Positions 28,191 through 46,094 of a DNA stretch of 64,000 nt are shown here, one piece after another (positions within the stretch are counted from its first letter, which is position 1; every line of letters begins with the position of its first letter). Source of the DNA: Rhodobacter sp. TJ_12 (GTDB lineage Bacteria > Pseudomonadota > Alphaproteobacteria > Rhodobacterales > Rhodobacteraceae); assembly GCF_020023995.1 (NCBI RefSeq), contig NZ_NRRD01000016.1, positions 1-64,000 on the forward strand, written 5' to 3'. The position numbers and the translations under genes are program-made. The notes below the pieces were generated by a model, which saw nothing but the letters and a program-made list of their open reading frames with translations, did no database searches and was not told the origin of the DNA.

Positions 28191-29342
28191 TCACCCAATA
28201 GAGGGCTGCACGGTCCCGGGATCTGCAACCAGCAAGGCGCGCCTGCGGTATTCGCTGGGCGACAGCCCGACCCCTTTCTTGAACGCTTTGCAGAAATAAT
28301 TCGCGTCTTGATAGGCAAGGTCCAGCGCCACATTGACAATGGGCAGGGTAGAGCTTGTCAAAAGCTCCTTCGCCCGTTCCAGCCGGCGGTCTTTCAGATA
28401 GGCGATGAAGGTCAGGCCCATTTGCTTATGGAAGAGCCGACTAAGATAGCAGGCGCTAAGATGCACATGTTCGGCGGCATCTTCGAGCGTGATCGGCTTG
28501 TGCAGATTGCGTTCGATGTAGTTGCGCACCCCTTCAACGCGCGCTTGTGCCGAGCGGCCCTGATCTTCTTCGGGATCAAACAGCAGATCAGTGATTTCGC
28601 TGAAAAGCTCTTGAACCTTGTAGTGGTTGCGCTGGTCCAGCCGTTGCGCGGTCAGCGCCTCGATCTTGCGCGCCAACGCTTCGGGCAGCGGACGTCCGGT
28701 GCAAGCCACCAGATCGGTCAGGATTTCCGACAGATCAAGCACGCCTTGGCGCGGCGCGGTTTCGCGATGCGCGTGCAGCGCCTCGATCTGGCGGCGCACC
28801 AGCGTGAGACAGTCGCGGTAGGCATGGGCCTGCACCAGCGCGCCAAGACGTTCGCGGATTGTGTCGGCATCTTGCACCGGGGCGGGGGCGACGATGGGGT
28901 CCGGTCGCGCCGGGCAGGGGACGGGGCCCAGCCGGGCAGAGGGGACAGGGGCGCGCGGCACGTTGGGCGCGGGTGCCGCTTGCAAACAATCTTGCACCGT
29001 TTTCAGCAAGGTTTCGGTGCGCACGGGCTTGAGCAGAAATCCATCCGCGCGCTGCTGGATTGCGGCTTGCATGATTTCAAAATGATCATAGGCGGTGATG
29101 ATTAGCACTTTGGTGGGCAATTGCTTGGTGCGCAGCATCTCCAGAATCTCCAAGCCATTCGGGCGCGGAATCCGGATATCGAGCAGCATCAGGTCAATCG
29201 GGCGGCTTTCGATCAGTTGCACCGCCTCTGCGCCGTTCTTCGCTTCGCCCACCACCTTTGCGCCGGGCAGATCGCGTTCCAGAATCGTGCGCAGGGCGCG
29301 GCGTTCCAGTTCTTCGTCCTCGACGATCACAATATCGGCCAT
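28191..29342 (-). CDS. AraC-type response regulator of the microcompartment locus
   Basis: A 383-residue regulator. The N-terminal receiver domain has the phosphoacceptor Asp55 in LMLLDIRIPR and Lys near FLLKPV. A Pro/Ala linker and a helical middle region follow. The C-terminal AraC double helix-turn-helix covers about residues 275-375 (ITLEDAAEHVHLSACYLSRLF, then PIVNVALDLAYQDANYFCKAF). It is the partner of the PocR-domain kinase 14 bases upstream; GGAGG lies before its ATG. Likely activates the glycyl-radical operon in response to diol, by analogy with PocR systems. Confidence 0.9.
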   Translation of the reverse strand: MADIVIVEDEELERRALRTILERDLPGAKVVGEAKNGAEAVQLIESRPIDLMLLDIRIPRPNGLEILEMLRTKQLPTKVLIITAYDHFEIMQAAIQQRADGFLLKPVRTETLLKTVQDCLQAAPAPNVPRAPVPSARLGPVPCPARPDPIVAPAPVQDADTIRERLGALVQAHAYRDCLTLVRRQIEALHAHRETAPRQGVLDLSEILTDLVACTGRPLPEALARKIEALTAQRLDQRNHYKVQELFSEITDLLFDPEEDQGRSAQARVEGVRNYIERNLHKPITLEDAAEHVHLSACYLSRLFHKQMGLTFIAYLKDRRLERAKELLTSSTLPIVNVALDLAYQDANYFCKAFKKGVGLSPSEYRRRALLVADPGTVQPSIG

Positions 29343-29356
29343 TGGCGCCTCCGGTC

Positions 29357-30748
29357 TTAGAAATCGCACGGATCGAAGTCGATCGGCAGGCGCAGCCGCA
29401 CCAGCGTGCCGCGACCTTGGCGGAACGGGCTCATGATCTCGACCCCGTGGCTGTCGCCGAAATACTGCTTCATCCGGGCGTGGATGTTGTAAACGCCAAT
29501 GCTTTTGCGCCCGCCGTGATCGGCCTCGCCGCGCAGCACCTCCACGCGGCGCTCCGCGCTGATGCCGGGGCCATTGTCGAGCACGTCGATGATTACATCC
29601 GATCCGTCACGATACAGCGACACCTCGATCAAGCCGCTGCTTTCCATCGGCTCGATGGCGTAGTTGATGCAGTTTTCGACGATCGGATGCAGCACCATGA
29701 AGGGGCACAGCACCTTGTCGAATTCCTCGGGGGCATCAAGCGTGAAATCGAACCGGTCACCCAGCCGGATTTTCAGCAAATAAAGATAGTTACGGACGTG
29801 GTCCACCTCGGTGCGCAGCGGCACGAATTGCGAACCGGAGCGCTTGAGGATGTAGCGCATCATATCGGCGAAAGCATGCACGGTGGTTTCGGTTTCGGGC
29901 GCGCCTTCCACCAGCGCCAACCGTCCGATCGTGTTGAGCACATTAAAAAGGAAATGCGGGTTCACCTGATAGGACAGCGCCTGCAATTCCGCCTCGCGCA
30001 GCAACCGCTCCAGTTCCGCGCGGCGCTGCGATTCCTCGGCCAGCCGCAGGTTCTTGGCGTAAAGCTCTTGTGTGACGCCGTTGGAATAGCTTTCCTCGAC
30101 GATATGCGAGGCGATGTAGTAAAGCGAATAGGCGGCAGAGCGTAGCCGCTCATAGCTGATCTCGCCGATTTCGCTGTGCAGTTTCAGCAGGTCGTCGTCT
30201 TCGCTCCAAGAGCCCTCGGTCGGGAAGATGTTCGACAGGTCCACGAAATCGGGGCCGGAATGGCGCTTGTCGAGTTTGACCTGCCCACAGATCACCGCGC
30301 CCAGATATTCGCCGCGCATGATGATTGGGGCGGCAAAATCCACAAGCTGACAGTGGCATTTGTAGATTGCCGGTTCCCCGGTCGAAAGCGCCGTGCGCCC
30401 GCCCACCGCATCGCAGTGAAAGCACCGCTCGCGCCAGTCCGCGCGTTGGCGCACAGCTGCGCAAAAGGGCGAAAAGCCCGAGGGCTGCGTCACCGGGGCG
30501 CCATCGGGGTCCACAATCACCATCGCCACGCCGACCGCGGCCGAGAAGTTGTCTTGCACCTTTTGCAGCATTTCGGTGCTCATCAGATCGGCAAGCTTAC
30601 GGCGCCGGGCTGCTTTTTCGGCGGGGCTTGCCGTGTCGGAGCGCTGCCCCGCGATCAATTCTGGAGGTGGTCGCGCCCCAGCTCTTTCATACGCCAGAAC
30701 ATCCTGCACCGACCCTGCAGGATGGCCGAACGGAACGCCGCTTCCCAT
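29357..30748 (-). CDS. PocR-domain sensor histidine kinase (LytS/YpdA-type)
   Basis: A 463-residue cytoplasmic kinase without membrane segments. Residues about 55-215 form a PocR ligand-sensing domain with the conserved cysteines CFHCD (109-112) and YKCHCQLVDFAAPI (131 onward). A short coiled coil (225-257) joins it to a LytS-type kinase core with His265 in QVNPHFLFNVLNTI and a GHKL ATPase (IVENCINYAI, DNGPGIS). PocR domains sense small diols such as propanediol. The start at 30748 follows GGGAAGGGG. It lies 268 bases downstream of the activase gene on the same strand, probably with its own promoter. Confidence 0.9.
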   Translation of the reverse strand: MGSGVPFGHPAGSVQDVLAYERAGARPPPELIAGQRSDTASPAEKAARRRKLADLMSTEMLQKVQDNFSAAVGVAMVIVDPDGAPVTQPSGFSPFCAAVRQRADWRERCFHCDAVGGRTALSTGEPAIYKCHCQLVDFAAPIIMRGEYLGAVICGQVKLDKRHSGPDFVDLSNIFPTEGSWSEDDDLLKLHSEIGEISYERLRSAAYSLYYIASHIVEESYSNGVTQELYAKNLRLAEESQRRAELERLLREAELQALSYQVNPHFLFNVLNTIGRLALVEGAPETETTVHAFADMMRYILKRSGSQFVPLRTEVDHVRNYLYLLKIRLGDRFDFTLDAPEEFDKVLCPFMVLHPIVENCINYAIEPMESSGLIEVSLYRDGSDVIIDVLDNGPGISAERRVEVLRGEADHGGRKSIGVYNIHARMKQYFGDSHGVEIMSPFRQGRGTLVRLRLPIDFDPCDF

Positions 30749-30802
30749 GCCAACCCCTTCCCATTTTTGACCGATGCCCCATCGAACACCCCTCGGCGCC
30801 AC

Positions 30803-30843: not shown

Positions 30844-30904
30844 CCCAACAGTCTTGGGACTTTGGGCGCGACCCCGGTCCGAGTCCGCATCTTCCTCCGG
30901 TCTT

Positions 30905-31016: not shown

Positions 31017-31937
31017 TCAACCGCCGATCATGCAATTGAGCCCGGCGGCCTCGACCACGGCTTTAAGCGGCAGGATCGCATCGGGGCGTAGATCTTTGGT
31101 CGCCCCCATTGGGCTTTGGCGGCCCAGAAGCGTGTATTTGTTCTCGCCAAAGCTGTGATAGGGCAGCAGATGCACAGTGTTCACCTTGGGCATTAGCGTT
31201 GCGAAATGGGCAATCGCAGCGATTTCGCGTTCATTGTCGTTCACGCCGGGCACCACCGGCACGCGCACCACCGGATTGGGGCTGAGCGAGGCGGCAATCA
31301 GCGCATTTTCCAAAATGATGCGGTTATCGACGCCGGTATTGGCCTGATGCACCGCCGGGTCGATGGCCTTGATATCCATCAGCAGGTTATCGACATGCGG
31401 GATCACATCGCGGATCACTTCGCGGGTGGTGCAGCCCGTGGTTTCCATCGCGGTATTCCAGCCTTGTTCATGGCAGGCCATCAAAAGCTGTTTGGCAAAG
31501 GCGGATTGCATCAGCGGCTCGCCGCCCGAAAGCGTCACGCCCCCGCCAGAGCGGCGATAGTGGATCGCGTCTTTGCGCAGTTCTTGCATCACTTCGGCCA
31601 GCGTCATGCGCCGCCCCGTGCGTTTAAGCGCCTCGGTCGGGCAGACCTTGGTGCATTCGCCACATTTGATGCATTTCGACCGATCCACAAAACCGGGATT
31701 GGTCTTCGATAGCGCCTGCACCGGGCAGACGGGCAGGCATTGCCCGCAGCCGATGCAGGCCGAGGCGCGGAAGAAGAGTTCCGGTTCCGGCGCCTGCGAT
31801 TCGGGGTTGGAACACCAGCGGCAGCGCAGCGGGCACCCTTTCAAAAACACGATTGTGCGCACCCCAGGCCCGTCATGGATCGAATAGCGCTGAATATCGA
31901 AGACGGTGCCTTCGGCGGTGGTGTCAATGACGGACAT
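31017..31937 (-). CDS. glycyl-radical enzyme activase (radical SAM)
   Basis: A 306-residue radical-SAM enzyme. The CxxxCxxC cluster (CPLRCRWC) is at about residues 35-42, followed by two ferredoxin-type [4Fe-4S] motifs (CIGCGQCLPVCP, CIKCGECTKVCP) and the SAM-binding GGVTLSGGEPL. It installs the glycyl radical on the diol dehydratase. It is the last gene of the microcompartment operon, preceded by AAGGAAG. It is oxygen-sensitive, which implies anaerobic or microoxic expression. Confidence 0.95.
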   Translation of the reverse strand: MSVIDTTAEGTVFDIQRYSIHDGPGVRTIVFLKGCPLRCRWCSNPESQAPEPELFFRASACIGCGQCLPVCPVQALSKTNPGFVDRSKCIKCGECTKVCPTEALKRTGRRMTLAEVMQELRKDAIHYRRSGGGVTLSGGEPLMQSAFAKQLLMACHEQGWNTAMETTGCTTREVIRDVIPHVDNLLMDIKAIDPAVHQANTGVDNRIILENALIAASLSPNPVVRVPVVPGVNDNEREIAAIAHFATLMPKVNTVHLLPYHSFGENKYTLLGRQSPMGATKDLRPDAILPLKAVVEAAGLNCMIGG

Positions 31938-31978: not shown

Positions 31979-32281
31979 TCAGAAAGCGGGGCCACTGGCC
32001 TCTTCGATGGCGGCCATCGCCGCGCGCACGGCCGAGGTTTCGCCCAAAACGGCCAAGGTGGTGGTGGTTTGCGGGCAGGTGCCGAACAGTTCCACCGTCA
32101 TCACATTGGCCGATTTCGAGGCGATATCGGCGAAGTAGAACAGATCGGGGACAGAGGCCTGCACCAGCCCCATCGCAGAAACCGGGTTTTCGTCTACCCA
32201 TTTGCGCACATGCGGCGCGACGCGGCGCGCAAGCATGTCGAACAGGTTGTCTTGCGGTGCGTTGATGATGCGAATTTGCAT
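31979..32281 (-). CDS. BMC shell protein, permuted hexamer (PduU/EutS-like)
   Basis: A 100-residue BMC-domain protein. The order of elements (NPVSAMGLVQASVPDLFYFADIASKSANV in the middle) matches the circularly permuted PduU/EutS hexamers, not PduA. The short N-terminal segment (IRIINAPQDNLFDMLA) is where PduU forms a beta-barrel plug. The ATG at 32281 follows GAGGAC. It sits between the aldehyde dehydrogenase and the activase. Confidence 0.85.
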   Translation of the reverse strand: MQIRIINAPQDNLFDMLARRVAPHVRKWVDENPVSAMGLVQASVPDLFYFADIASKSANVMTVELFGTCPQTTTTLAVLGETSAVRAAMAAIEEASGPAF

Positions 32282-32304: not shown

Positions 32305-33894
32305 TCAGCGCACGTTCAGCGCTTCGACCATCACGCATTTGCGGCGACGCGCGAAAGAGCGCGGCGAGGTCAGTCCCTCGCCCGTCGGGCCGGCGATGGT
32401 GAAGGTGGTGTATCCTTCGCCGCCCACGCCGATCCCGGCGTAAGAGGGGCCGTTTTTCACAAAGATCGTCGTCTGGATCAGCTTCGCCATCTTCGTCAGT
32501 TTGCGCACATTGGTCGAATGCATGATCGCGGTGTGGCGGTTGCCGTGTTCCAGATCGACGGCCAGATCAATCGCCTCATCGACATTAGGCACCCGCACCA
32601 CCGGCAAGATCGGCATCATCAGCTCTTCTTGCACGAAGGGGTGGTCTTTCTTGGCTTCCAAAAGGATCAACCGTACCTCGGGGGCCGCCTTGATCCCCAC
32701 CTGTTGCAGCAGCCACGCCGCAGACTTGCCCACGCAATCGGTTTGCGGTCCGCCTTTTTCGGTCAGCACCCGCGCTTCAAGATTTTTGAGAACCTCCGGC
32801 TCTGTTACCAGATAGGCGCCATTGCGCTGCATTTCAGAGATCAGGAAATCGGCGGCTTGATCGACGACGATCACCTCTTTTTCCGCGATACAGGGCATGT
32901 TGTTGTCGAAACTTGCCCCATTCACGATGTCTTGCGCGGCTTTCGGAATATCGGCGGTTTCATCGACCACCACGGGCGGGTTGCCCGCACCGGCGCCAAT
33001 GGCTTTCTTGCCGGTCGACATCACCGTGCGCACGATACCGGGGCCGCCGGTGGCCACAAGCATGCGCACCTTGGGATGTGCCATCATCGCATTGGTGTTC
33101 TCGATCGAGGGGGCCTGCACCGTCACAACAAGGTTCGCGGGCGCGCCAAGCGCCGCCAGTTTGCGGTTGATCAGCTTGATCGCCAGAAGCGACACGCCTT
33201 TGGCGCGCGGGTGGGGGCTGAACACCGCCGCATTGCCCGCTGCCAGCATGCCGATGGAATTGCAGATCACCGTTTCGGTGGGGTTGGTGGTGGGGGTGAT
33301 CGCGCCGATCACGCCAAAGGGCGACAGTTCCACCAGTGTCAGCCCATCGTCGCCGCTTTGCGCCTCGGTGGTCAGATCTTCGACGCCCGGGGTTTTTTCG
33401 GCGGCCAAGCGGTTCTTAATGATCTTATGGCCCAGATTGCCCATGCCGGTTTGCTCGACCGTCAGGCGCGAAATTCGCTCAAGGATCTCTTGGTCGGTGA
33501 AGGCCGCGCGAATGCCTTCGACGAAGCGTTTGCGGTCGGCCATCGTGCAAAAGAGATATTGTTTTTGCGCCTCGGCAGCGGCCTCGATGGCGGCATCCAT
33601 CGTGGCAAAAACCCCGTCGCCCAGTTCAACCGCCTCGGCATCCGAAATCGACAGACATCCCGCCGTGCCTTTGCAATCGCTGGCTTTGCAGCAGGAACAA
33701 TTGCGTGCCGCTAGGGCGCGGGGCAGGATGCCGCCAATGATATCATCCGTCGGATCGGCAGGCTTCGTGGGGGCCCATCCGCAGCCTTCGGTGGCGGGTT
33801 TGAAATCCGGTGCGGACGTAGGCGCGGTCGCGGGGGTCGCGATGTAACCGCTCAGCACGCGGGCGACGGCATTTTCAATATCTATATCTTTCAT
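32305..33894 (-). CDS. CoA-acylating aldehyde dehydrogenase (PduP-like) with encapsulation helix and Cys-rich linker
   Basis: A 529-residue enzyme converting propionaldehyde (or another aldehyde) plus CoA and NAD+ to acyl-CoA. Residues 1-18 (IENAVARVLSGYI) form an amphipathic helix typical of a microcompartment encapsulation peptide. A Pro/Ala linker leads to a cysteine cluster, NCSCCKASDCKGTAGC, with Cys66, 68, 69, 74 and 80, which ordinary PduP lacks as far as I know. The catalytic core follows, with the active-site Cys in NNMPCIAEKE and the cofactor loop VATGGPGIV. The ATG overlaps the upstream stop (ATGA), with AAAGGAC. Confidence 0.92.
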   Translation of the reverse strand: MKDIDIENAVARVLSGYIATPATAPTSAPDFKPATEGCGWAPTKPADPTDDIIGGILPRALAARNCSCCKASDCKGTAGCLSISDAEAVELGDGVFATMDAAIEAAAEAQKQYLFCTMADRKRFVEGIRAAFTDQEILERISRLTVEQTGMGNLGHKIIKNRLAAEKTPGVEDLTTEAQSGDDGLTLVELSPFGVIGAITPTTNPTETVICNSIGMLAAGNAAVFSPHPRAKGVSLLAIKLINRKLAALGAPANLVVTVQAPSIENTNAMMAHPKVRMLVATGGPGIVRTVMSTGKKAIGAGAGNPPVVVDETADIPKAAQDIVNGASFDNNMPCIAEKEVIVVDQAADFLISEMQRNGAYLVTEPEVLKNLEARVLTEKGGPQTDCVGKSAAWLLQQVGIKAAPEVRLILLEAKKDHPFVQEELMMPILPVVRVPNVDEAIDLAVDLEHGNRHTAIMHSTNVRKLTKMAKLIQTTIFVKNGPSYAGIGVGGEGYTTFTIAGPTGEGLTSPRSFARRRKCVMVEALNVR

Positions 33895-34364
33895 TTCACT
33901 TGTCCTTTCGTCAGGGCCGCGCCCCAATGTCCTGCAATCGCTGACTGGGCGATCTGCATGTCCTGTGCGACGCCGCCGCCGCTGATCCCGATGGCGCCAA
34001 GCACGGCGGCGCCCGCCCAGATCGGCAGGCCGCCGCCAAACAGCACGGTGCCGGTTTCGGCGGCGCCCAAACCCTCAAGCATCGCGCCCGTTTGCGCTTG
34101 GCGGCCCAATTCATCGGTTCCCATCCTGTAGCGTGCGGCGGTGCGCGCCTTGGCGGGGGCGAGCGTGATCGAGGCAGGCAGCGCGCCATCCATGCGGTGG
34201 AACAAAAGCGGCTCGCCTGCCGGATCGCACAGCGCGATGCAGACCGGCAGCGCGATCCGGCGGGCCTCAAGCTCGGCTAAGGCGGCGATGCGCGTGGCCT
34301 CTGCCAGCGTCAGCGGGCGGCGGGCGGCAAGCTCGGTGGCCAAGATCGTATCGAGTGTGGACAT
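33891..34364 (-). CDS. HbpS/GlcG-like (PduO C-terminal-like) protein
   Basis: A 157-residue protein of the DUF336 (HbpS/GlcG) fold. The segments PVCIALCDPAGEPLLFHRMDGA and VLFGGGLPIWAGAAVLGAIGISGG are typical. The C-terminal domain of PduO, a microcompartment adenosyltransferase, has this fold and binds haem. Here it is a standalone gene in a B12-independent operon, so its role cannot be cobalamin adenosylation. GGAGGG precedes the ATG; the stop overlaps the aldehyde dehydrogenase start. Confidence 0.85.
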   Translation of the reverse strand: MSTLDTILATELAARRPLTLAEATRIAALAELEARRIALPVCIALCDPAGEPLLFHRMDGALPASITLAPAKARTAARYRMGTDELGRQAQTGAMLEGLGAAETGTVLFGGGLPIWAGAAVLGAIGISGGGVAQDMQIAQSAIAGHWGAALTKGQVK

Positions 34365-34367: not shown

Positions 34368-34649
34368 TTAGCCCTCCACCCCGCGCTGGCATTCGACCGT
34401 GTCAACAATCGCGACGATAGATGCATCGACCACCGAATGGTCAAAAGTGCCTGCAAAGCGCCCGGCGCTGCCGGTTGTGACGATGACGGTTTCGCCATCG
34501 CCCGCGCCCACGGTATCGACTGCGATTTCGTTCCAGCCTTCGGGGCAAAGCTGCGCGTCGAGGCGGCGCACGATCAAAAGCTTCGCACCCGAAAGGCTGA
34601 CATCCTTGGTGGTGGCGACGACCCGTCCGATGACTTTTGCAAGATACAT
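34368..34649 (-). CDS. BMC vertex pentamer, EutN/CcmL family
   Basis: A 93-residue protein whose start (MYLAKVIGRVVATTKD) and core (VDTVGAGDGETVIVTTGSA) match the EutN/CcmL vertex pentamer. Pentamers close the corners of the icosahedral shell. GAGGAGCG precedes the ATG. Confidence 0.95.
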   Translation of the reverse strand: MYLAKVIGRVVATTKDVSLSGAKLLIVRRLDAQLCPEGWNEIAVDTVGAGDGETVIVTTGSAGRFAGTFDHSVVDASIVAIVDTVECQRGVEG

Positions 34650-34658: not shown

Positions 34659-35369
34659 TCACTCTTGGATCAGCCGGATGCCGCGCTCCGACAAGCTTTC
34701 GGCGGCAAGCGGTGTTAGGCGCACCGCGCGCCCCAGCCGCAGTTCGGGGCCGGTGCAGGCGCGTGCCTGCTGCCAGCCGAAAATGCCCGATTGCTGGACC
34801 GGTGCGGCCAGCGCCGTCGTGGTGGCCTTGCCACCCTGAACGGTGGTGGCCAGGCGCGCGGCCCAGCACAGTTCCACCCCCTGCGCGGCTAGGCTTGCGA
34901 GATGGCCCGACATGATCGCGCGCCGCGCCGGATTTGCCGGGGCCAGACCTCGCGCGGCGCGCTCGCGCCCATCGGGGCAGACACCATCGCGCGCCGCCAC
35001 GATCCGCAGGCCACGATCCAGCGCCTCGCCCAGCACTTTTGACACCGGATCATCGGCGATGCCGGTCGCCACTTTCGCCGCCGCCGACAGGCTGAGCGTG
35101 GGCACCAGAACCAGACCAAACCGCATCAGGCGCGGCGTCTCCGTCAGTTCCGGCAGGGACAGGCGCGGGGCCACAGAGGTGCGCAATTCGGGCGCGGCAA
35201 GCCAGTCGCCGGTCCAGCCTGCCGCGCACAGGGTCTCGATCCCGGCGAGCGCCGGTTCCAGCCCAAGATCGGCCTCGGTAAACACCACCAGCGCCCGGCT
35301 GGCCCGCGCCTTTAGCGCCGCTACGATCCGGTCCGAAAGCGCATCGATCAAGATACGGTCGAGATCCAT
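34659..35369 (-). CDS. BMC-associated flavoprotein-like protein
   Basis: A 236-residue protein. Sequence ALVVFTEADLGLEPALAGIETLCAAGWTGDW and RFGLVLVPTLSLSAAAKVATGIADD suggests a flavodoxin-like or Cys-decarboxylase-like fold, and glycyl-radical microcompartment loci often carry such a flavoprotein. No catalytic residues can be assigned. The ATG at 35369 overlaps the eutJ stop and follows GGGGAGG; a GTG three bases earlier is possible. The function is unknown: it may reduce the activase or handle a cofactor. Confidence 0.5.
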   Translation of the reverse strand: MDLDRILIDALSDRIVAALKARASRALVVFTEADLGLEPALAGIETLCAAGWTGDWLAAPELRTSVAPRLSLPELTETPRLMRFGLVLVPTLSLSAAAKVATGIADDPVSKVLGEALDRGLRIVAARDGVCPDGRERAARGLAPANPARRAIMSGHLASLAAQGVELCWAARLATTVQGGKATTTALAAPVQQSGIFGWQQARACTGPELRLGRAVRLTPLAAESLSERGIRLIQE

Positions 35370-36205
35370 CACCGGGCCTCCCCGGCAAAAAGCGCAATCC
35401 CGAGCGGGGTGACAAGCAAAGGCTCGACCGGTTTGATGACCTGGCGGCCAAGGTGCTTTTCGAAGACTGGCGTGAAATCCTCAAAGCTACACGCGCCGCC
35501 CACCACATGCACCGCGTCAAGCCCGGGGTAATCCGTCAGCACCGTTGCGACGATCGCGGCCATTTTGTCCACCACCGGGCGCACCAGTGCGAACACATCG
35601 CGCGCGTGCGCCGGGTCGAGCTTGTAAGCCTCGGCGGCCGCCGTTTCGAGCCGCAGCGCCCCGGCCAGAACCAGCGTCATATGTGTGCCGCCGGTGGCTT
35701 CATCGACCGAGGTCAGCACTTTGCCCGCTTTGAGGATTGAAATACCCGTGGTGCCGCCGCCCACGTCGACCACCGCCCCGTCTTTGACCCCCAGCACGCG
35801 CGCGGCGGCCACGGGTTCATCGACGATGCAGGCAAGCTGGAAACCGGCGGCTTCGATCACATTGCCGATCGCTTTCGCGCTGCCCGGATGGATGCCCGGC
35901 GGGATCGCGGTGGCGGCGCGGTGCAAGGGCGTGCCCAGACGGGTTTCCAACTCGGCTTTCATCCGCCGCACGGCGCGCACGGTTTCGGGCCAATCGACCA
36001 CGATCCCGTCGCGGATACCGCCCGACCGTTCGGTGAGGCCCGCCACGGGCCGCCCCGCCGCATCGACCACCGCAAGCACAAGATTTGCCGTGCCCAGATC
36101 GACGCCGACACTCAGCGGACCTTCGGCGCGCGCATCGCGCGGCACGATCGCCCCCGCCCGCAAAAGCGCCCCGAAGTCACGCAAAAGGGCATCGGATCCG
36201 GACAT
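35369..36205 (-). CDS. eutJ: EutJ-like actin/Hsp70-fold ATPase
   Basis: A 278-residue protein with the sugar kinase/Hsp70/actin ATPase signatures GVDLGTANLVLAVVD, VVDVGGGTTGISIL and VHVVGGACSFEDF. EutJ proteins occur in many microcompartment operons and are thought to be chaperones or enzyme reactivators, but the function is unproven. The ATG at 36205 follows AAGGAGG; an earlier in-frame start would overlap pduL further. Confidence 0.85.
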   Translation of the reverse strand: MSGSDALLRDFGALLRAGAIVPRDARAEGPLSVGVDLGTANLVLAVVDAAGRPVAGLTERSGGIRDGIVVDWPETVRAVRRMKAELETRLGTPLHRAATAIPPGIHPGSAKAIGNVIEAAGFQLACIVDEPVAAARVLGVKDGAVVDVGGGTTGISILKAGKVLTSVDEATGGTHMTLVLAGALRLETAAAEAYKLDPAHARDVFALVRPVVDKMAAIVATVLTDYPGLDAVHVVGGACSFEDFTPVFEKHLGRQVIKPVEPLLVTPLGIALFAGEAR

Positions 36206-36215
36206 CACCGCCTCC

Positions 36216-38366: not shown

Positions 38367-38648
38367 TCAGGCTTTCGCGGCCGGCAGGATTTTCTCGACT
38401 TCGGTATGGGGACGCGGGATCACATGAACCGACACGACCGAGCCGACTTTTTCGGCAGCCACGGCACCGGCGTCGGTGGCGGCTTTGACCGCGCCGACAT
38501 CGCCGCGCACCATCACGGTAACGAGGCCCGAGCCGATTTTTTCATAGCCGACCATCGCCACATTGGCCGATTTGACCATTGCATCGGCGGCTTCCACGGC
38601 GGCGACCAAACCTTTGGTCTCGACCATCCCGAGTGCTTCTTGTTGCAT
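38367..38648 (-). CDS. BMC-H shell hexamer, PduA/PduJ-like
   Basis: A 93-residue canonical BMC-domain protein ([55 protein letters not shown]). It should make the main facets of the shell. AAGGAGAA precedes the ATG. It is the first shell gene after the enzymes ADH and the radical dehydratase. Confidence 0.95.
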
Positions 38649-38737: not shown

Positions 38738-39877
38738 TCAACCGCCGGCCCGGTCAAGGAGCATCGACAACTCCGCAAGTCCGGGACGCCGCGGGTTGCC
38801 CGCGGTGCAGGCATCCGCATAGGCGGCTGCCGCAAGGTCGGGGATCGCCCGACGGTAGGCCCCGATATCGAGGCCGAGCCCCCGCAAGCTGGCGGGGATC
38901 GCAAAGCGCGCGTTCAGCGCTTCGATGGCACGGATCAGGGCGACGACACCGGCCCGGGTGCCGGGCACATCCAGCCCGACGCGCTGCGCGATGCGGGCAT
39001 AACGGGCGGCGGTTTCGCGGGTCTCGGGCGCATGGTCCAAAAGGCCCGCGTTCCAGGCGATGACATGGGGCAGCAAGATCGCGTTGATCCGGCCATGTAC
39101 CAGATGGAATTGTCCGCCGATGGCATGGGCAAGGCCGTGGTTGATGCCAAGGCCAGCCTCGGTGAAGGCCATGCCCGCAAGGCAAGAGGCTTGGTGCATC
39201 GCATCGCGGGCGGCGATGTCATTGCCCTTGTCAAAGGCCTTGGGCAGGGCGGCAAAGGCCAGCTCAAGCGCTTTTTCGGCAAAGGCATCGGTGAAGTTCG
39301 ATGCCCCTCGGGCCACGACCGCTTCAATCGCATGGGTGATCACATCCATGCCGGTATCAGCGGTGACTTTGGGCGGAGCGGTTCGCACGAATTCCGGGTC
39401 CAAGATCGCCACATCGGGGATCAGATCGGGGGAAATCAGCGGGAATTTGCGGTTGTTGGCTGGATCCGAGATCACCGCAAAGGCGGTCACTTCAGAGCCA
39501 GTGCCGGAGGTGGTCGGAATGGCCACAAGGCGGATCGGATGCGCCGGGTCCATGCCGCGCACCACAGCCAAGATCGCTTTGGCCGCATCGATCGGGGAGC
39601 CGCCGCCAAGGGCCAGCACCACATCGGGGCGGAAGTCAGCAAAGAGGCGCGCGCCAGCCGAAACGGTGGCAAGCGGCGGTTCGGGGATCGCTTCGGCGAA
39701 AACTTTCACCTGGCAGCCATCAAGGTAACCCATCACCCGATCCAGCGGGCCGGATTTGGCCATGAATTCATCGGTCACAATGCCGACGCGCTGGCCACGA
39801 TAGGCGTGCAGGCGCTCCAGCAGCCCATCGCCGAAGACGATCTCGGTGCGGGGCGTGAAGGTTTGGTAGCGGGTCAT
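38738..39877 (-). CDS. iron-type alcohol dehydrogenase
   Basis: A 379-residue group III alcohol dehydrogenase. It has the NAD motif GGGSPIDAAK, the TTSGTGSEVT segment, and the metal-binding histidines in HAIEAVVARGAS, GINHGLAHAIGG. In propanediol compartments such an enzyme reduces aldehyde to alcohol and regenerates NAD+. The start at 39877 (weak AGGTG) is chosen because conserved sequence begins about ten residues later. A 119-base gap with two hairpins separates it from the dehydratase. Confidence 0.9.
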   Translation of the reverse strand: MTRYQTFTPRTEIVFGDGLLERLHAYRGQRVGIVTDEFMAKSGPLDRVMGYLDGCQVKVFAEAIPEPPLATVSAGARLFADFRPDVVLALGGGSPIDAAKAILAVVRGMDPAHPIRLVAIPTTSGTGSEVTAFAVISDPANNRKFPLISPDLIPDVAILDPEFVRTAPPKVTADTGMDVITHAIEAVVARGASNFTDAFAEKALELAFAALPKAFDKGNDIAARDAMHQASCLAGMAFTEAGLGINHGLAHAIGGQFHLVHGRINAILLPHVIAWNAGLLDHAPETRETAARYARIAQRVGLDVPGTRAGVVALIRAIEALNARFAIPASLRGLGLDIGAYRRAIPDLAAAAYADACTAGNPRRPGLAELSMLLDRAGG

Positions 39878-39910
39878 CGGAACACCTGTTTGGCGAGAGA
39901 TCGGCCCGGA

Positions 39911-39988
39911 GGGCATCGGCGCGGGAGGGGAGGAGTGCGCCGATGCCCCCCGGAGGGCAGGTCCCGCCATGGGCGGCGGGGCCTGCGG
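39911..39988 (-). other. intercistronic hairpins between dehydratase and ADH
   Basis: A perfect 12-bp inverted repeat (GGGCATCGGCGC at 39911-39922, GCGCCGATGCCC at 39937-39948) is followed by a second imperfect hairpin (39958-39988). Neither has a T-tract, so they more likely protect or adjust the level of the dehydratase transcript than end the operon. Confidence 0.6.
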
Positions 39989-39996
39989 GAGAGCGC

Positions 39997-42522
39997 TTAG
40001 AACGCTTGCTCGGTGCGGCTGATGATGTCGTCTTGCACTTCTTTGGCGAGCACGACGAACTGTGCCGAATACCCAGCCACCCGCACCACGAGGTCGTTGT
40101 AATCCTCGGGGTTTTTCTGCGCTTTCAGCAGCGTTTCGCGGTCGATCACGTTGAACTGCACGTGCATGCCTTTGTGGTCGAAGTAGGACCGCACAAGCGA
40201 TGCGAAGTTCTGCAGACCAGTGTCACCAGCCAAAGCGGAGGGCAGGAATTTCTGGTTGTAGAGCGTGCCGTTCGAGGCGATGAAGTGGTCGAGTTTTGCC
40301 ACCGAGTTGGCCGCAGCCGTCGGGCCGAGACGGTCTTTGCCTTGGCGCGGCGACACGCCATCGGCGAGGGGGAGTTTGGCCGGGCGGCCATCGGGCAGCG
40401 CGCCCACATCCTTGCCGAAAAGCACGTTGGCCGACACCGGGTAGATCCCGGCCTGGAATTGGCCACCACGCGGGTTGGTGTATTTTTCCACTTCTTTGCA
40501 GTAGATCTGCGCACATTTGCGGGCGATCAAGTCGACGTCGTCATTGTCGTTGCCAAAGGCTTCGGCAGAGTCGAGCAGGCGGCGGATGCCTTCGTATTTC
40601 GACCCGTCGACCGGCGCGGCCCCTTTCGAGAGCGTGCGATAGACTTCGTCTTTGAGCGCGGCGACATCGAGCGACGCATTGGTGGCAAGCACCTTTTTCA
40701 CCGCTTCGTAGATTTGCGCCTCGCTCATTTCGCCGGTCGGCGCATCCGCCCCCATCGCCATGCCGAAGTTCGCGTCCAGCGCTTCCTTCAGTTCCGCCAT
40801 GGTGAGTTTTTTGTCGTCCCAGACGAATTTCTTCATCGCATAGACCGAGTCACCGGTGTCAGCGACACCGAAGGCTTGCGGGCCGGTGAAGTTGTAGATC
40901 GCCCCACCTTCTTGGACCGATTTGCCGCGCCCCATGCAGTCATCGACCATCGCCGAAAGGAACGGCAGCGGCGCGCGTTCGGCATGGGCGATGTCGACAC
41001 AGTTGTCGGCTTCGGCCAAGTATTTGACGAAGAAGGACATCTGACCGCTGAAGGCGGCATAGAAGTCTTCGAGCGATGTCCAGTCTTTCGCGTCGCCGGT
41101 GACCGGGCCAAGCTGGGTGTTGCCCACTTTGCCGTTGTTGAGCGTGATCTCAAGCACTTTGGCCACGTTGAAGAAGGCCGCGTCGTGCCACCCTTCGGTG
41201 CGGTGGATCGCTTGCGGTTCCACGCAGCCAACGATGCCATAGTCGCGGGCATCGGCCAGCGAAACACCACGGTTTTGCAGCGAGGGGATGATCACTTCGT
41301 CGTTGTAAACAGCCGGGACACCAAGGCCGAGGCGCACAACTTCGGCGGCACGATGCAAGAACTCATCGGGTGTGCCTTGCCACACACGGATCGAGAACGA
41401 GGGCGCCGGAAGGCGCACGTGAGCAACGGCATCCATACACATGTAGGAAACGTCGTTCGTCGCATCGAGCCCGTCTTCGGTTTGCCCCCCCACGCAGAGG
41501 TTTTGGAACACCGCATAGCCCGCGAAGGCCTGGGCCGAAACTTCATCGCGCGTTTTGTTGACGTCGTTGAGTTTGATCCAGATGCAGTCGATCAGTTCTT
41601 GCGCGAAGTCGCGGCTGATCGCGCTGTCGGCTTTCAGATAGGGATACATATATTGGTCGAAGCGGCCGGGCGAGATCGAGTGGCCCGAGCTTTCGATTTG
41701 CAGCATGCATTGGATGAACCACATCGTCTGGCACGCTTCCCAGAAGGTGGTCGCGCCATGTTCCGGCACGCGGCGGCAGTTTTTCGAGATTTGCTCGAGT
41801 TCCGCTTTGCGCGTCGGGTTGGTGCAGGCGCTCGCCAGTTCGGCGGCTTTGTCCGCATAGCGGTGTGCAAAGTCGATCGCGGCTTTGTAGGCGATGATGA
41901 CCGACGTGTAGAACTGGTTCTTCTTGATCGCGTCGGGGTCTTTGTCATCCAGTTGCTCGCGCAGCCGGATCGCTTCCATGATCACGCCGGAGAAGCCGAT
42001 TTGCAGGATCTTGCCGTAGTCCACGCAAACGTGGCCCACGCCGCCATAGAAGTAGTTGCCCACCGTGAAAACGCCATTGGCAATACAATCTTTCGCGGTT
42101 TGCGACATGTAAGCCGCCGCAAGGTCGGAGGTGGTGTGACCGGGCCAATATTTGAACGCTTCATGCAGCGCTGCGGCGGTTTCTTTCGGGATTTCAAACG
42201 GGTCGGCAACGCGGCCGGCCATGGTTTCGAATTCTTTTTCGACCCAGTCAAAGCTGAATTCGGGGCAGATTTCGGTCGAGCGCGGGTTGATGGTGATCGA
42301 GCCCACCACAAGTTCGTCGTCACGGATCGTGATCGGCAGTTCGGCGAAGATTTTCTCCACCACCTTGGCGCGGCGCAAGATTGCGGGCAGACCTTCGGTC
42401 GCCTTATAGGCCTCGGTGGCCAAGACCGCCCGTTCCGCCTCGACATGCGGCCGGGCGTTCAGGATCTGGTTCTTCAACCGCGTAATACGGTCGGTGGGTT
42501 GGGTGAAGCCCTTCTCAATCAT
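39997..42522 (-). CDS. glycyl radical diol dehydratase (B12-independent)
   Basis: An 841-residue radical enzyme. His164, His281, Ser282, Cys433, Glu435 and Asp447 fall at exactly the numbers of the active site of Clostridium butyricum glycerol dehydratase. The glycyl radical loop is RVAGYSA with Gly817, 24 residues from the C-terminus as in that enzyme. Asp at Cys+14 and His164 argue for diol (1,2-propanediol or glycerol) dehydration and against choline lyase. An extra ~54 residues (about 587-644) are inserted and hold two amphipathic helices. The ATG at 42522 follows GGAGG; an in-frame codon 36 bases upstream is less likely. Confidence 0.93.
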   Translation of the reverse strand: MIEKGFTQPTDRITRLKNQILNARPHVEAERAVLATEAYKATEGLPAILRRAKVVEKIFAELPITIRDDELVVGSITINPRSTEICPEFSFDWVEKEFETMAGRVADPFEIPKETAAALHEAFKYWPGHTTSDLAAAYMSQTAKDCIANGVFTVGNYFYGGVGHVCVDYGKILQIGFSGVIMEAIRLREQLDDKDPDAIKKNQFYTSVIIAYKAAIDFAHRYADKAAELASACTNPTRKAELEQISKNCRRVPEHGATTFWEACQTMWFIQCMLQIESSGHSISPGRFDQYMYPYLKADSAISRDFAQELIDCIWIKLNDVNKTRDEVSAQAFAGYAVFQNLCVGGQTEDGLDATNDVSYMCMDAVAHVRLPAPSFSIRVWQGTPDEFLHRAAEVVRLGLGVPAVYNDEVIIPSLQNRGVSLADARDYGIVGCVEPQAIHRTEGWHDAAFFNVAKVLEITLNNGKVGNTQLGPVTGDAKDWTSLEDFYAAFSGQMSFFVKYLAEADNCVDIAHAERAPLPFLSAMVDDCMGRGKSVQEGGAIYNFTGPQAFGVADTGDSVYAMKKFVWDDKKLTMAELKEALDANFGMAMGADAPTGEMSEAQIYEAVKKVLATNASLDVAALKDEVYRTLSKGAAPVDGSKYEGIRRLLDSAEAFGNDNDDVDLIARKCAQIYCKEVEKYTNPRGGQFQAGIYPVSANVLFGKDVGALPDGRPAKLPLADGVSPRQGKDRLGPTAAANSVAKLDHFIASNGTLYNQKFLPSALAGDTGLQNFASLVRSYFDHKGMHVQFNVIDRETLLKAQKNPEDYNDLVVRVAGYSAQFVVLAKEVQDDIISRTEQAF

Positions 42523-42575: not shown

Positions 42576-43166
42576 TCAGGTCAAAAGAGTCGGAGCGACG
42601 AGCCCCACGAACGCACGCATCAGCGTTTGATGCCCCGGCCAGGCCGGTGCGCTTGCAAGGTTTCCGTCGACCACGGTTTGCTCCGGCGCGACTGCGACGA
42701 AGGTGGCTCCTGCCGCCCGCACTTCGGGCTCGACAGCCGGATAGGCCGTCAACCGACGTCCGCGCACCACGTCAGCGGCGGTCAGGAGTTGCGCGCCATG
42801 GCAGATCGCGGCCATGGGCCGGTTCTCCGTCATGAAGGTTCGCACGATGGCCAGAACCTGCGCGTCAAGACGCAGGTATTCACAGGCACGGCCACCGGCG
42901 AGATAAAGACCGGCATAGTCTTCCGGGCTGACCGTCGCGAAGGAGGCAGTGAGCCGAAACAGATGGCCGGGTTTTTCCGAATAGGTTTGATCGCCCTCGA
43001 AATCATGGATAGCGGTGCGGATCGTTTCGCCCTTGCGTTTGCCCGGGCAGACAACATCCACCGCGAAGCCGAGCATTTCGAGCGCTTGGAACGGAACCAT
43101 CACTTCATAATCTTCGGTATAATCTCCGACGATCATCAGGATTTTATGTCCGGAAGTGCGTTTCAT
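42576..43166 (-). CDS. DJ-1/PfpI family protein
   Basis: A 196-residue protein with the nucleophile elbow AAICHG (Cys) and the acid in GDYTEDYE of the DJ-1/PfpI fold. Members include glyoxalase III-like, chaperone and deglycase proteins. It is the first gene of the minus-strand block, 53 bases before the dehydratase, so it is likely co-transcribed. Protection against reactive aldehyde adducts is a plausible role but is inferred. AAGGA lies about ten bases before the ATG. Confidence 0.75.
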   Translation of the reverse strand: MKRTSGHKILMIVGDYTEDYEVMVPFQALEMLGFAVDVVCPGKRKGETIRTAIHDFEGDQTYSEKPGHLFRLTASFATVSPEDYAGLYLAGGRACEYLRLDAQVLAIVRTFMTENRPMAAICHGAQLLTAADVVRGRRLTAYPAVEPEVRAAGATFVAVAPEQTVVDGNLASAPAWPGHQTLMRAFVGLVAPTLLT

Positions 43167-43844
43167 GAAGATCCGTTCCTTCGGTGCCGTTCATCGGCGC
43201 CGTGGAAAAAGGAATAGGCTTGGTGCTGAAAAACGGCAACGTGACCACCTTGACATCGAAGGGGAATAACTTGCCGTGCCCTTATTGCATGGCGCTTTGC
43301 GCGCAAATCACATGGCGTTTTTATGTGGTCAGCTAAAAACCTATTCCGCCCAGAACAAGAAAAGACAGGAACAGGTGATTTTTTGCCATGGTCAGCGCAA
43401 CTTTGCCCCCGTGCGCTGGGCAAGGTTGCGCCTGTCAGGCCGTGCATTGGCGCGATCTGCGCAGCGGTTGCCGGAGCGGCGCACGGGTTTTTCTTGATAT
43501 AATATAATAAAATAAGGTGTTTGATTTGGTTTTGTTGTGGTGTGTCGCCGCGATTCGTGGCGCGGCCGCAAGAAACTACCCGCACAGGCCAAGGGGCTCA
43601 TCTTGATCGTTGCGGGGGCGCGCACGTAATTTGATGACCGATCGGCATAGCCGCGATCGGAGGAAATCACGTCTCGTAAAAAATCGGTGCTTTTGCTCGA
43701 AAATATATTTTCCGGGGGCAATTTTGACGTGCCTTTTATTCGGTAAATGCCGCTTTGGGTGCCATTCGGCATCCTTGCCTGAATAAATCCCTATGACCCG
43801 GACATAATCCAAAGCGGACCGCCCGGAAATACAAGGAGACCAGA
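43167..43844. promoter_or_regulatory. divergent regulatory region of the microcompartment locus
   Basis: A 678-base non-coding gap between the divergent blocks. It holds a palindrome TTTGCGCGCAAA (43296-43307), flanked by CATGGCG repeats; an AT-only run in an otherwise GC-rich genome (about 43494-43516, TATAATATAATAAAATAA); and a perfect 14-bp palindrome GAAAATATATTTTC (43699-43712). No clear sigma-70 pair or FnrL site (TTGAT-N4-ATCAA) was found. It must carry the promoters of both the glycyl-radical operon and the membrane protein/ackA pair. Confidence 0.6.
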
Positions 43845-44756
43845 ATGTCACTACTTGGTTTGCTCGTCGCTTTTGGCGGCGGTATATTCGGCGCCGCCAT
43901 TGGTGCTTTGCCGGCGTTTACCTTTGTCGGTTTTTTGACGATGATCGGCGTGGCGATCCAGCTGGCCGTGGCCCCCGAAGCGACAGACTTCTTTGGCATC
44001 CCCTTCGGCGCCTTTGGCCCGCATACGGGGGGCTTTGCGGCGGGCGTCGCGGCGGCGGCCTATGCGGCCAAGAAGGGCAAAATCGATAGCGGCCGCAACA
44101 TCGTGACGGCGGGGATGGGGCTCAACAGCCCCGATGTGCTGCTGGTGGGCGGTATCTTCGGGGTGATCGGCTATCTGATCTTTTGGGCGCTGACCTTTGT
44201 GCCAAGTTTTGGCGAGGGCTTGGCCTTTAGCGATCTTCCGGCGGTGGGCGTGGTGATCTCGGCCTTTATCGCGCGTTTCCTGTGGGGCACCTGCGGGTTC
44301 TGCGGCAAGGCCGATCCGGGCCGGGGCTTTTTCCACCCGACCGATGCCACCAAATGGCTGGCCTTCCAATCAAGCTTTGCACAGATCGCGGTGATTGGCG
44401 TTGGCGGCGGGCTTTTGGGGGGCTGGCTTGGGGTAAGCTATGGCGTGCCCGGGGCGCTTTTGGCCTTTGGGATCGCAGCGTCGAGCCTTTTGTTTCTAAC
44501 GCTGGGCGTGCTGACGCCGGTTTCGCATCACATCATGCTGCCTGCGGCGCTGGCCGGTGTGGCATCTGGCAGCGTGGTCTGGGGCGCGGTGATTGGTATT
44601 CTCTCCGCATTCTTGGGCGAATTTTTTGCCCGCGCCTTCCTGTGCCACGGCGACACTCACGTTGACCCCCCGGCCTGTGCGATTGCGGTGATGACCTTTG
44701 CTGTCAACCTGCTGAGCTTCCTTGGCTTCTGGGCATTGGTGCCGCTGCCGGTCTGA
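43845..44756 (+). CDS. unknown polytopic membrane protein of the microcompartment locus
   Basis: A 303-residue protein with about eight hydrophobic segments and no signal peptide. Conserved-looking stretches are FGIPFGAFGPHTGGFAAG, GLNSPDVLLVGGIFGVIG and RFLWGTCGFCGKADPGRG. I do not recognise a characterised family. It lies 75 bases before acetate kinase and diverges from the dehydratase operon, so it may import diol or export the acid product, or be an anaerobic membrane factor. ACAAGGAGACC precedes the ATG. Confidence 0.75.
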   Translation: MSLLGLLVAFGGGIFGAAIGALPAFTFVGFLTMIGVAIQLAVAPEATDFFGIPFGAFGPHTGGFAAGVAAAAYAAKKGKIDSGRNIVTAGMGLNSPDVLLVGGIFGVIGYLIFWALTFVPSFGEGLAFSDLPAVGVVISAFIARFLWGTCGFCGKADPGRGFFHPTDATKWLAFQSSFAQIAVIGVGGGLLGGWLGVSYGVPGALLAFGIAASSLLFLTLGVLTPVSHHIMLPAALAGVASGSVVWGAVIGILSAFLGEFFARAFLCHGDTHVDPPACAIAVMTFAVNLLSFLGFWALVPLPV

Positions 44757-44831
44757 GCCGTTTCATTTGATCCGGTGGCGCGGCGGTCTCCGTCGCGTTG
44801 CCCCATTCCTGACCCCACAAGGACGACCCCC

Positions 44832-46094
44832 ATGATCTTGATCATCAATTGTGGCAGTTCCAGCCTCAAATATCAGCTTTACACCCCCGATCTGGCGCAT
44901 GTGGCCGCGTCTGGGATGATTGCAAAAATCGGCGAGCCAGAGGGCTATATCGACCATTTCGTGGGCCATCGGGGCGAGCATCACCGCTGCCCGGTGCCTG
45001 ATCATCGCGCCGCTTTCGCGCTGATGATGGAATACCTGCTGTCGCCTGAATATCATGTGATCGAATGCCCCGGCGCGATCACGGCCATCGGCCATCGCGC
45101 GGTGCATGGCGGCTCTGTCTTCGTGGAATCGGTTCTGGTCGATGATGCGGTTTTGCAGGCTCTGCGCGATTGCGCGGCCTTCGCGCCCTTGCACAATCCG
45201 TGTAATATCATCGGCATCGAGGAAGCTCAGCGCCTGTTCCCCGGGGCCCCGAATGTTGTGGTGTTCGACACCGCCTTCCATCAGACCGTGCCCGAGCATG
45301 CGCATCTTTATGCCCTGCCGCACAGCCTAAGCGAAGACTATGGCCTGCGCCGGTATGGGTTTCACGGCACATCGTGCCGCTATGTCAGCCAGCGCGCGGC
45401 AGAGCTGCTGAACCGCCCGCTTGAAAAGCTGTCGATGGTGGTGTGCCATCTGGGCAATGGTGTCACGCTGGACGCGATCAAGGGGGGGCAGTCGGTCGAC
45501 ACGTCGATTGGCTTTGGCACCTTCAGCGGTGTTCCCATGGGCACACGCGCGGGCGATTTTGACCCGGCGATCATCTTCCATCTGGTGAACGAACGGGGCA
45601 TGCGCCTCGAAGAGGTTGAGGAAATCTGCTATAAGAAAAGCGGACTTTTGGGGCTGTCGGGGCTGTCCAATGACATGCGCGAGGTCACCGATGCGGCGGC
45701 CGCGGGCAATAAACGCTGCCAGTTGGCCGTGGATGTCTTTGTCTATCATATCCGCAAAACGATCGGGGCCTATGCGGCGGTGATGGGGGGGCTGGATGCG
45801 CTCGTATTCACCGCAGGTATTGGCGAAAACAGCGCCGAGATTCGCGCGCGGGTTTGCGAAGGGCTTGGCTTCCTTGGCATCGAAATCGACCCACGTGCCA
45901 ATGCCGTGGCGGGCAAGGGGCCGCCGAACATCAGCGCGGTGACGGCGCGGGCAGCCACGCTTGTGGTGCCCACCGACGAGGAACGGATGATCGCGCTCGA
46001 CACCGTGGCCCTGACCGAGGGCTTGCCGGTTCGGCAAGTGCCGCCCGTGGCCAAAGTGTGCCATGCCGAGGCGCATGGTTTGGCCGCGCGCTAA
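44832..46094 (+). CDS. ackA: acetate/propionate kinase
   Basis: A 420-residue kinase (MILIINCGSSSLKYQLY, HRAVHGG, RRYGFHGTSCRYV, CHLGNGVTLDAIK, VFTAGIGENS) that makes ATP from acyl phosphate. The ack motifs are complete. It finishes the pathway started by PduL. Located with the divergent membrane protein; an imperfect hairpin (46102-46138) follows and separates it from the convergent parE. Confidence 0.95.
   Translation: MILIINCGSSSLKYQLYTPDLAHVAASGMIAKIGEPEGYIDHFVGHRGEHHRCPVPDHRAAFALMMEYLLSPEYHVIECPGAITAIGHRAVHGGSVFVESVLVDDAVLQALRDCAAFAPLHNPCNIIGIEEAQRLFPGAPNVVVFDTAFHQTVPEHAHLYALPHSLSEDYGLRRYGFHGTSCRYVSQRAAELLNRPLEKLSMVVCHLGNGVTLDAIKGGQSVDTSIGFGTFSGVPMGTRAGDFDPAIIFHLVNERGMRLEEVEEICYKKSGLLGLSGLSNDMREVTDAAAAGNKRCQLAVDVFVYHIRKTIGAYAAVMGGLDALVFTAGIGENSAEIRARVCEGLGFLGIEIDPRANAVAGKGPPNISAVTARAATLVVPTDEERMIALDTVALTEGLPVRQVPPVAKVCHAEAHGLAAR

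Follow-up and report, generated by a model that had tools for sequence, protein, structure and literature searches.

The 64,000-nucleotide stretch of DNA analysed here, referred to below as the window, belongs to contig NZ_NRRD01000016.1 of Rhodobacter sp. TJ_12 (genome 3.58 Mb), and judging from gene content and order we conclude with high confidence that its positions 28191-46094 carry a glycyl-radical microcompartment (GRM) locus of the GRM3 type, that is, a B12-independent 1,2-propanediol utilization system. By open frames and family matches, this 18-gene locus is complete and uninterrupted, and the reading is supported by a gene order shared with five other Rhodobacter loci and, nearly so, with seven other alphaproteobacteria. 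The system is already known and the present locus is another member of it; as the initial annotation of this DNA had stated, it is in print for R. capsulatus, in which the 15 genes rcc_02199-02213 are described as a 1,2-propanediol pathway with 76- to 250-fold changes in expression (PMC5359404).

The minus strand carries, in the order of transcription, genes for a DJ-1/PfpI protein, the glycyl-radical dehydratase, an iron-type alcohol dehydrogenase, a BMC-H shell protein, a PduB-type BMC-T protein and a second BMC-H protein with a proline-rich tail, followed by PduL, EutJ, a flavoprotein-like protein, the EutN pentamer, an HbpS/DUF336 protein, the aldehyde dehydrogenase, GrpU and the activase, and then, after a gap of at least 214 bases, by a PocR kinase and an AraC-type response regulator. 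A permease gene and, after it, that of acetate kinase lie on the plus strand, divergent from the minus block. All parts named in the initial annotation are present where it placed them, in open frames and with family matches far beyond chance; its four hexameric or trimeric shell proteins and one pentamer correspond to the two BMC-H proteins, the PduB-type BMC-T protein, GrpU as the fourth BMC-domain protein, and EutN, and its PocR-type kinase and AraC-type regulator show the PocR and His_kinase domains and a receiver with an AraC-type helix-turn-helix, respectively. The DJ-1/PfpI, HbpS/DUF336, flavoprotein-like and permease genes were additional to its list. A search of the own genome returned five BMC-domain matches, corresponding to four proteins, all inside the cluster. 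The suggestion of one 15-kb operon stands in part: the 14 genes from DJ-1 to the activase (31017-43166) are closely spaced, with gaps of at most about 120 bases by likely starts, and the block probably consists of one operon of 14 genes and a separate kinase-regulator pair, which we set apart because of the at least 214 bases between the activase and the pair, and permease-ackA is, by its arrangement, a separate divergent transcript. Generic promoter and terminator scans returned fewer sites than shuffled sequence (1 versus 4.2 and 18 versus 22.6, respectively) and were uninformative on the operon limits.

Gene order was compared by tblastn of the 18 cluster proteins and 4 flanking proteins against 88 loci, the relatives coming partly from a search that kept the best 80 of more. 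Order and orientation are identical in five other Rhodobacter loci (L109-L113), including that of R. capsulatus SP108 (L112, the contig of L049), and nearly identical in all seven of the other alphaproteobacteria, namely Rhizobium wenxiniae, Rhodovulum, Breoghania, Aliiruegeria, Cohaesibacter, Tianweitania and Roseospira, in agreement with the GRM3 order that had been claimed for the window. The departures among these seven are small: Tianweitania gave no match to DJ-1, Roseospira gave none to the permease and has one additional BMC-H, Aliiruegeria shows an additional alcohol-dehydrogenase match, and the fetched stretches of Rhizobium, Roseospira and Cohaesibacter contain no acetate kinase. 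The more distant loci among the 88, of which there are many (clostridial and others), show larger differences. Within the genus the dehydratase is present in 6 of 18 genomes, and wider sampling of the class (1/385) and phylum (1/398) at E 1e-150 returned only the window's own genome.

The composition of the locus leads to the same type. The glycyl-radical enzyme is accompanied by its cognate radical-SAM (S-adenosylmethionine) activase, by shell proteins of the BMC-H, BMC-T and BMC-P kinds, and by the core enzymes acylating aldehyde dehydrogenase, alcohol dehydrogenase and PduL; the radical enzyme is without an N-terminal extension and has instead an insertion of about 50-60 residues, as characterizes GRM3. 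The published list of GRM3 ancillary genes comprises acetate kinase, a peptidase, a flavoprotein, EutJ, a DUF336 protein, a two-component pair and SAM synthetase (PMC4207490), and the content of the cluster equals that list minus SAM synthetase, the DJ-1 protein, odd as it looks here, being the counterpart of the E. coli GrpL "protease" and presumably the "peptidase", and the flavoprotein match being weak and made through relatives. Seven of 11 aligned members of the latter family match PF02441, the best at 1.9e-6 with a reporting limit of E 1, and the similarity of the window protein to the E. coli "flavoprotein" at the equivalent place is weak (24% over 145 residues, E 1e-5).

With E. coli GrpM the dehydratase shares 76% identity; its best solved relatives are 9rco (1408 bits), the glycerol dehydratase 1r8w (1058 bits) and the R. 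inulinivorans diol dehydratase 5i2a (941 bits). Counting residues from 42558, Cys445, Glu447, His176, His293, Ser294, Asp459 and Gly829, which we take to have the catalytic roles assigned to these columns, are kept in all 20 enzymes compared (19 relatives and that of the window). The same 20 share the internal insertion at about 603-652, with unmatched residues at about 604-652 for the 9rco chain and 599-654 for 1r8w; such an insertion is described for 1,2-propanediol enzymes (PMC6325248), and we regard it as a putative encapsulation peptide. In a tree of 87 dehydratases, from which 2 of the 88 loci were dropped and which included no labelled GRM1/2/5 reference, the window enzyme nests with R. 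aestuarii, then with the other Rhodobacter, then with the alphaproteobacteria (Shimodaira-Hasegawa-like approximate likelihood ratio test, SH-aLRT, 99; one inner fork 94), and the alphaproteobacterial enzymes join the E. coli grp group at SH-aLRT 100. The genome also holds a second, distant glycyl-radical enzyme (G000:C4:140154-141674; 29 and 37% identity in two pieces), probably a pyruvate formate-lyase.

As for regulation, alignment of the 0.63-0.70-kb divergent region in six Rhodobacter genomes brought out conserved islands, two of which are opposite-orientation copies of CAAG-N17-CAAG, a 21-base direct repeat, each directed toward its own transcript. Direct repeats of such kind are used by AraC-type proteins, and we infer that the site is the operator of the local regulator, probably switching the cluster on. 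Since the strict pattern was derived from the Rhodobacter sites themselves, its presence there is not independent evidence; across the 18 genomes of the genus it gave two divergent-region matches in each of the 6 locus carriers, one more elsewhere in genome G005, and a single match (in G016) in the 12 genomes without the locus, and a reversed control gave 4 matches in the 18 genomes, none of them in the six carriers. A weight matrix built from the 12 Rhodobacter sites was tried on the seven other alphaproteobacteria against 300 shuffles. It found two sites facing both transcripts in Rhizobium, Rhodovulum, Breoghania and Tianweitania, reached by 0/300 shuffles, one weaker site in Cohaesibacter (0/300) and one in Aliiruegeria (1/300), and no site by score in Roseospira (28/300). 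Exactly nine bases past the repeat stands TTG in 21 of the 23 listed sites, weak ones counted, as TTGACC in 14 of the 23, and in the Rhodobacter sites a -10-like box follows 17 bases after this -35-like box. We note that an inverted repeat near 43355-43385 also looks conserved among the Rhodobacter divergent regions.

A relaxed pattern that includes the TTG, written after the sites were known, gave 15 matches in 13 genomes (6 Rhodobacter and 7 others) and none in the reversed control. Fourteen of these lie in the divergent regions: the four genera contribute both of their sites, and the six Rhodobacter contribute the permease-facing site; in the latter the other, DJ-1-facing site misses the pattern by having TTCCCC at that position. 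The fifteenth was unexpected: it lies on another contig of Cohaesibacter (C. marisflavi), about 340 bases before a PduS-like gene that is followed by a gene for a two-domain BMC protein of the PduT type (this place is L172 1315-3666, G784:C30). This site is picked out by the relaxed pattern only, and the Rhodobacter-only matrix misses it, scoring it at 7.2 against 9.1 for a match inside the BMC gene of the same stretch. Its placement suggests that the pduS-pduT-like pair may form a satellite operon of the microcompartment regulon. A response-regulator relative is found 1.7-2.1 kb beyond the fetched cluster stretch in all seven other alphaproteobacteria, and identity in its DNA-binding domain amounts to 68-74% for the four genera that have both sites, 62-67% for the three whose sites are weak or lacking, and 48% in E. 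coli. A seemingly clear excess of divergence in the regulator of the weak-site genera was due to split matches; domain-wise the difference within the alphaproteobacteria is small, and we dropped the idea. A literature search on the operator, covering the beginnings of abstracts, found no report, which is weak evidence of absence, and in the literature covered we likewise found neither the unlinked pduS-pduT site nor the changing position of the cluster described below.

Several points weigh against the GRM3 assignment with 1,2-propanediol as substrate. No SAM synthetase, which is ancillary and not defining, is among the identified proteins of 28191-46094; the dehydratase and the alcohol dehydrogenase match no equivalog model above cut-off; the substrates of glycyl-radical enzymes are described as hard to assign from sequence (PMC6325248); and the accessory content (GrpU, no PduS/PduT in the cluster) resembles not typical GRM3 but the published GRM3b profile, in which GrpU is present and PduS/PduT mostly absent (PMC6325248), a likeness by content alone for a subtype that rests on locus arrangement as well. 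A choline-type locus (GRM1/GRM2) would have a choline trimethylamine-lyase as its radical enzyme, which is of the same superfamily, and the CutC model does match the window enzyme at 584 bits. However, the cut-off of that model is 1050 bits (the sulfopropanediol and hydroxyproline dehydratase models also stay far below theirs), solved choline lyases reach about 463-540 bits, where the three best diol- or glycerol-type enzymes have 941-1408, the internal insertion stands in place of an N-terminal extension, and the gene order, in which the initial annotation had seen a possible refutation if it proved choline-like, fits the grp/GRM3 loci. We rejected a choline-type locus on model scores and gene order, and consider its probability negligible. 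That the main substrate might be glycerol or another vicinal diol is suggested by the non-compartment glycerol dehydratase 1r8w being the second-best solved relative and having a nearly identical active-site set, but position 351 is Phe in 20/20 enzymes, as in 5i2a, and not Tyr as in glycerol dehydratase, and the R. palustris GRM3 enzymes in vitro convert 1,2-propanediol to the coenzyme A (CoA) thioester and gave no product from glycerol (PMC5311937); a preference for such a substrate thus appears very unlikely to us.

The operator assignment faces a stronger competitor, namely that the direct-repeat sites belong to a global regulator, or owe their conservation to something else. Global regulators do affect the R. 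capsulatus cluster: RegA represses rcc_02199-02213 anaerobically in PY medium (PMC5359404), and LAerR is a repressor of the cluster (PMC6199135). Moreover, three of the seven other alphaproteobacteria, with one weaker site in two and none in the third, are without a strong site pair, and yet keep the same regulator, its DNA-binding domain slightly more diverged, beside the cluster. A global regulator should have its sites at many loci, however, whereas the strict pattern occurs only at the cluster, twice, in the six cluster-bearing Rhodobacter, bar the extra match in G005, and the relaxed pattern exactly twice per genome in the four other genera. We consider this alternative unlikely, if one to be taken seriously, and prefer the local regulator as the protein that reads the sites. 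Finally, the patchy presence of the locus in the genus could perhaps mean that it is decayed or silent in the present genome; with the frames open and the catalytic residues and both promoter sites kept, we give this hardly any credence.

The permease was modelled with a predicted local distance difference test (pLDDT) score of 85.4 and a predicted template modelling (pTM) score of 0.86, and the predicted structure is tentatively a channel-like fold resembling urea transporters and Amt. In the Rahnella locus, the aquaglyceroporin gene pduF occupies its place. For the pathway as a whole, 1,2-propanediol would enter the cell through the GrpO-type permease, and within the shell, presumably enclosing the dehydratase and activase, the acylating aldehyde dehydrogenase, the alcohol dehydrogenase and PduL, it would be dehydrated to propionaldehyde. 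One branch would then lead by way of propionyl-CoA and propionyl-phosphate to propionate, with ATP gained at the kinase, and the other to 1-propanol, recycling NADH. The PocR kinase may sense the diol, and the AraC-type response regulator would activate the two divergent promoters through the direct-repeat sites placed nine bases upstream of both -35-like boxes. Gene content, order, families, frames and sites in this scheme come from the present analysis; the chemistry is taken from R. palustris and the expression from R. capsulatus. Considering everything jointly, we suspect that the alphaproteobacterial GRM3 islands may carry a self-contained switch, in which the PocR-kinase/AraC-type regulator reads CAAG-N17-CAAG at a fixed nine bases upstream of the -35 box of both divergent transcripts, that this switch may have recruited unlinked genes, such as the pduS-pduT-like electron-transfer pair of Cohaesibacter, and that it would relocate with the island, substrate entry being through an unnamed channel family of urea-transporter/Amt fold, whose place is taken by PduF in at least one related locus, that of Rahnella. 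We offer this composite tentatively, being somewhat inclined to doubt that it holds in all its parts.

The position of the cluster differs among near relatives. In R. aestuarii the counterparts of window positions 26119-28172 and 46161-52338 lie only 142 bases apart with no cluster between them, and the cluster is on another contig; the corresponding interval of G005 measures about 1.5 kb and likewise lacks the cluster. The window interval 28172-46161 is flanked by an RTX/Hint protein gene and a parE/gyrB-like gene, and the gene past acetate kinase is this parE/gyrB-like gene in the window, homoserine O-succinyltransferase in R. aestuarii, a sulfotransferase in G010 and G012, and an M19 dipeptidase in G005. 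G010 and G012 have a common cluster site, and the other flanks compared share the cluster's own end only. One cluster thus stands at no fewer than four, i.e. at least four, chromosomal sites in the five Rhodobacter genomes compared (G015 left out). No integrase or transposase was seen among the 10 neighbouring frames tested. DNA identity to R. aestuarii is 65-78% over about 34800-37300, a tract of GC 0.64-0.72 that holds the flavoprotein, EutJ, PduL and tailed BMC-H genes, against 79-97% in the other mainly coding 500-base bins. The tract was perhaps exchanged by recombination in one lineage, because in the PduL bin the window is nearer to G005 (85%) than to R. aestuarii (77%). We make no claim of a recent transfer of the whole island between the window lineage and R. 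aestuarii, since third-position identity varies strongly among the 18 genes (53-95%) and those at the two ends (63 and 60%) have diverged to the same degree as genes of the neighbourhood; of the 16 "core" frames used for comparison, some are probably antisense artefacts, e.g. 49605-51749 and 56598-57197.

Table. Features of the microcompartment locus and its candidate operators (positions in the window; likely starts of the aldehyde dehydrogenase, dehydratase and GrpU were read off the translations)
Feature	Position	Strand	Basis and remarks
AraC-type response regulator (receiver + HTH_18)	28191..29369	-	Pfam Response_reg 1e-26, HTH_18 3e-23; likely start 29342
PocR-domain histidine kinase	29357..30802	-	PocR 5e-49, His_kinase 3e-26; start uncertain
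Glycyl-radical enzyme activase	31017..31937	-	TIGR02494 5e-111; radical SAM CxxxCxxC and two ferredoxin motifs in translation
GrpU-type BMC-H shell protein	31979..32281	-	PDB 4olp E 1.8e-21; GTCPQ motif; likely start 32281
CoA-acylating aldehyde dehydrogenase	32305..33894	-	PRK15398 2e-215; N-terminal encapsulation-type helix, Cys-rich linker; likely start 33894
HbpS/GlcG-type (DUF336) protein	33891..34364	-	PF03928 2e-34
EutN/CcmL pentameric vertex protein	34368..34649	-	PF03319 4e-27
Flavoprotein-like GRM3 accessory protein	34659..35372	-	No Pfam match itself; weak, via relatives and E. coli counterpart
EutJ-type actin-like ATPase	35369..36232	-	PRK15080 1e-102
PduL phosphate propanoyltransferase (phosphotransacylase, PTAC)	36216..36884	-	PF06130 2e-73
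BMC-H shell protein, Pro-rich C-terminal tail	36912..37508	-	PF00936 1e-23
PduB-type BMC-T shell protein	37527..38339	-	PRK15415 2e-130
BMC-H shell protein (PduA/J type)	38367..38648	-	PF00936 2e-28
Iron-type alcohol dehydrogenase	38738..39970	-	PF25137 3e-51, PF00465 2e-43; start maybe 39877; putative 1-propanol dehydrogenase role
Putative glycyl-radical 1,2-propanediol dehydratase	39997..42522	-	PFL-like 6e-244, Gly_radical 8e-38; internal insertion; tree; likely start 42522
DJ-1/PfpI protein, GrpL homologue	42576..43166	-	TIGR01382 4e-48; 58% to E. coli GrpL
Candidate operator facing DJ-1/dehydratase operon	43249..43273	-	TTGCCG 9 bases on, then N17, TATTCC
Candidate operator facing permease-ackA	43569..43593	+	TTGATC 9 bases on, then N17, GTAATT
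GrpO-type permease	43845..44756	+	55% to E. coli GrpO; no Pfam family above cut-off
Acetate/propionate kinase	44775..46094	+	PF00871 3e-139; TIGR00016 2e-137

A few further observations concern individual proteins and the neighbourhood. The GrpU-type shell protein is one which we take to have an iron-sulfur role. In the aldehyde dehydrogenase, the linker that joins the N-terminal helices to the enzyme contains the Cys cluster NCSCCKASDCKGTAGC at about 33655-33702, seen in similar form in the six Rhodobacter and partly in Rhizobium, and in none of the four gammaproteobacterial N-termini examined (L026, L027, L036, L039); it is possibly a metal or iron-sulfur site. The neighbouring RTX/Hint protein (26102-28054, minus strand) has six RTX-type repeat stretches and a C-terminal Hint_2 domain. 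Farther on, a thiamine pyrophosphate (TPP) riboswitch (Rfam RF00059; 25851-25951, minus strand) precedes an extracellular solute-binding protein gene (24826-25827), which because of this placement is probably part of a thiamine ABC transporter.

Since the organelle is a usual one of its kind and known from R. capsulatus, its value as a discovery is low. Two by-products could be of use to specialists. One is the precise, conserved candidate operator, with which the control of glycyl-radical microcompartments can be put to a direct test and which indicates an unlinked member of the regulon; the other is the permease family, with no Pfam model and a predicted channel-like fold. The finding of one 18-kb cluster at different positions in near relatives clearly exemplifies the relocation of a whole organelle.

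Lastly, we compare the locus with known systems. Judged by annotation and position, each of the 18 genes has a counterpart in the E. coli grp locus (L026); tblastn finds 17 of them, and the flavoprotein pair is weak. The order of that locus differs in that acetate kinase, the permease and some shell genes are elsewhere and PduL and the alcohol dehydrogenase are at the other end, and it carries a SAM synthetase gene, grpR, which the window cluster does not. The B12-dependent Pdu microcompartment follows the same pathway logic with PduA/B/L-type parts and a PocR sensory domain, in contrast to which the window dehydratase is a glycyl-radical enzyme and no PduCDE is in the cluster. A search of the genome with PF02286 (B12 diol dehydratase) gave no match, but control genomes were equally blank and absence is not established. 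The R. capsulatus locus has the same genes in the same order and orientation, the kinase-regulator pair and both candidate operator sites, its dehydratase being 92-93% identical; in genome G010 of that group (L111), where the chromosomal site is a different one, acetate kinase adjoins the sulfotransferase gene and lies about 135 kb from the parE-like gene, its neighbour in the window. In vivo work of 2019 attributed to Schindel reportedly places the R. capsulatus cluster under the control of the two-component system adjoining it. The GRM3 locus of R. palustris BisB18 has, by its published description, the same core enzymes as the window, its dehydratase bearing an intramolecular encapsulation peptide and its aldehyde dehydrogenase a long one at the N-terminus (PMC5311937), and a survey refers to the studies of R. 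palustris and R. capsulatus for the conversion of 1,2-propanediol to propanol and propionate (PMC8156839).

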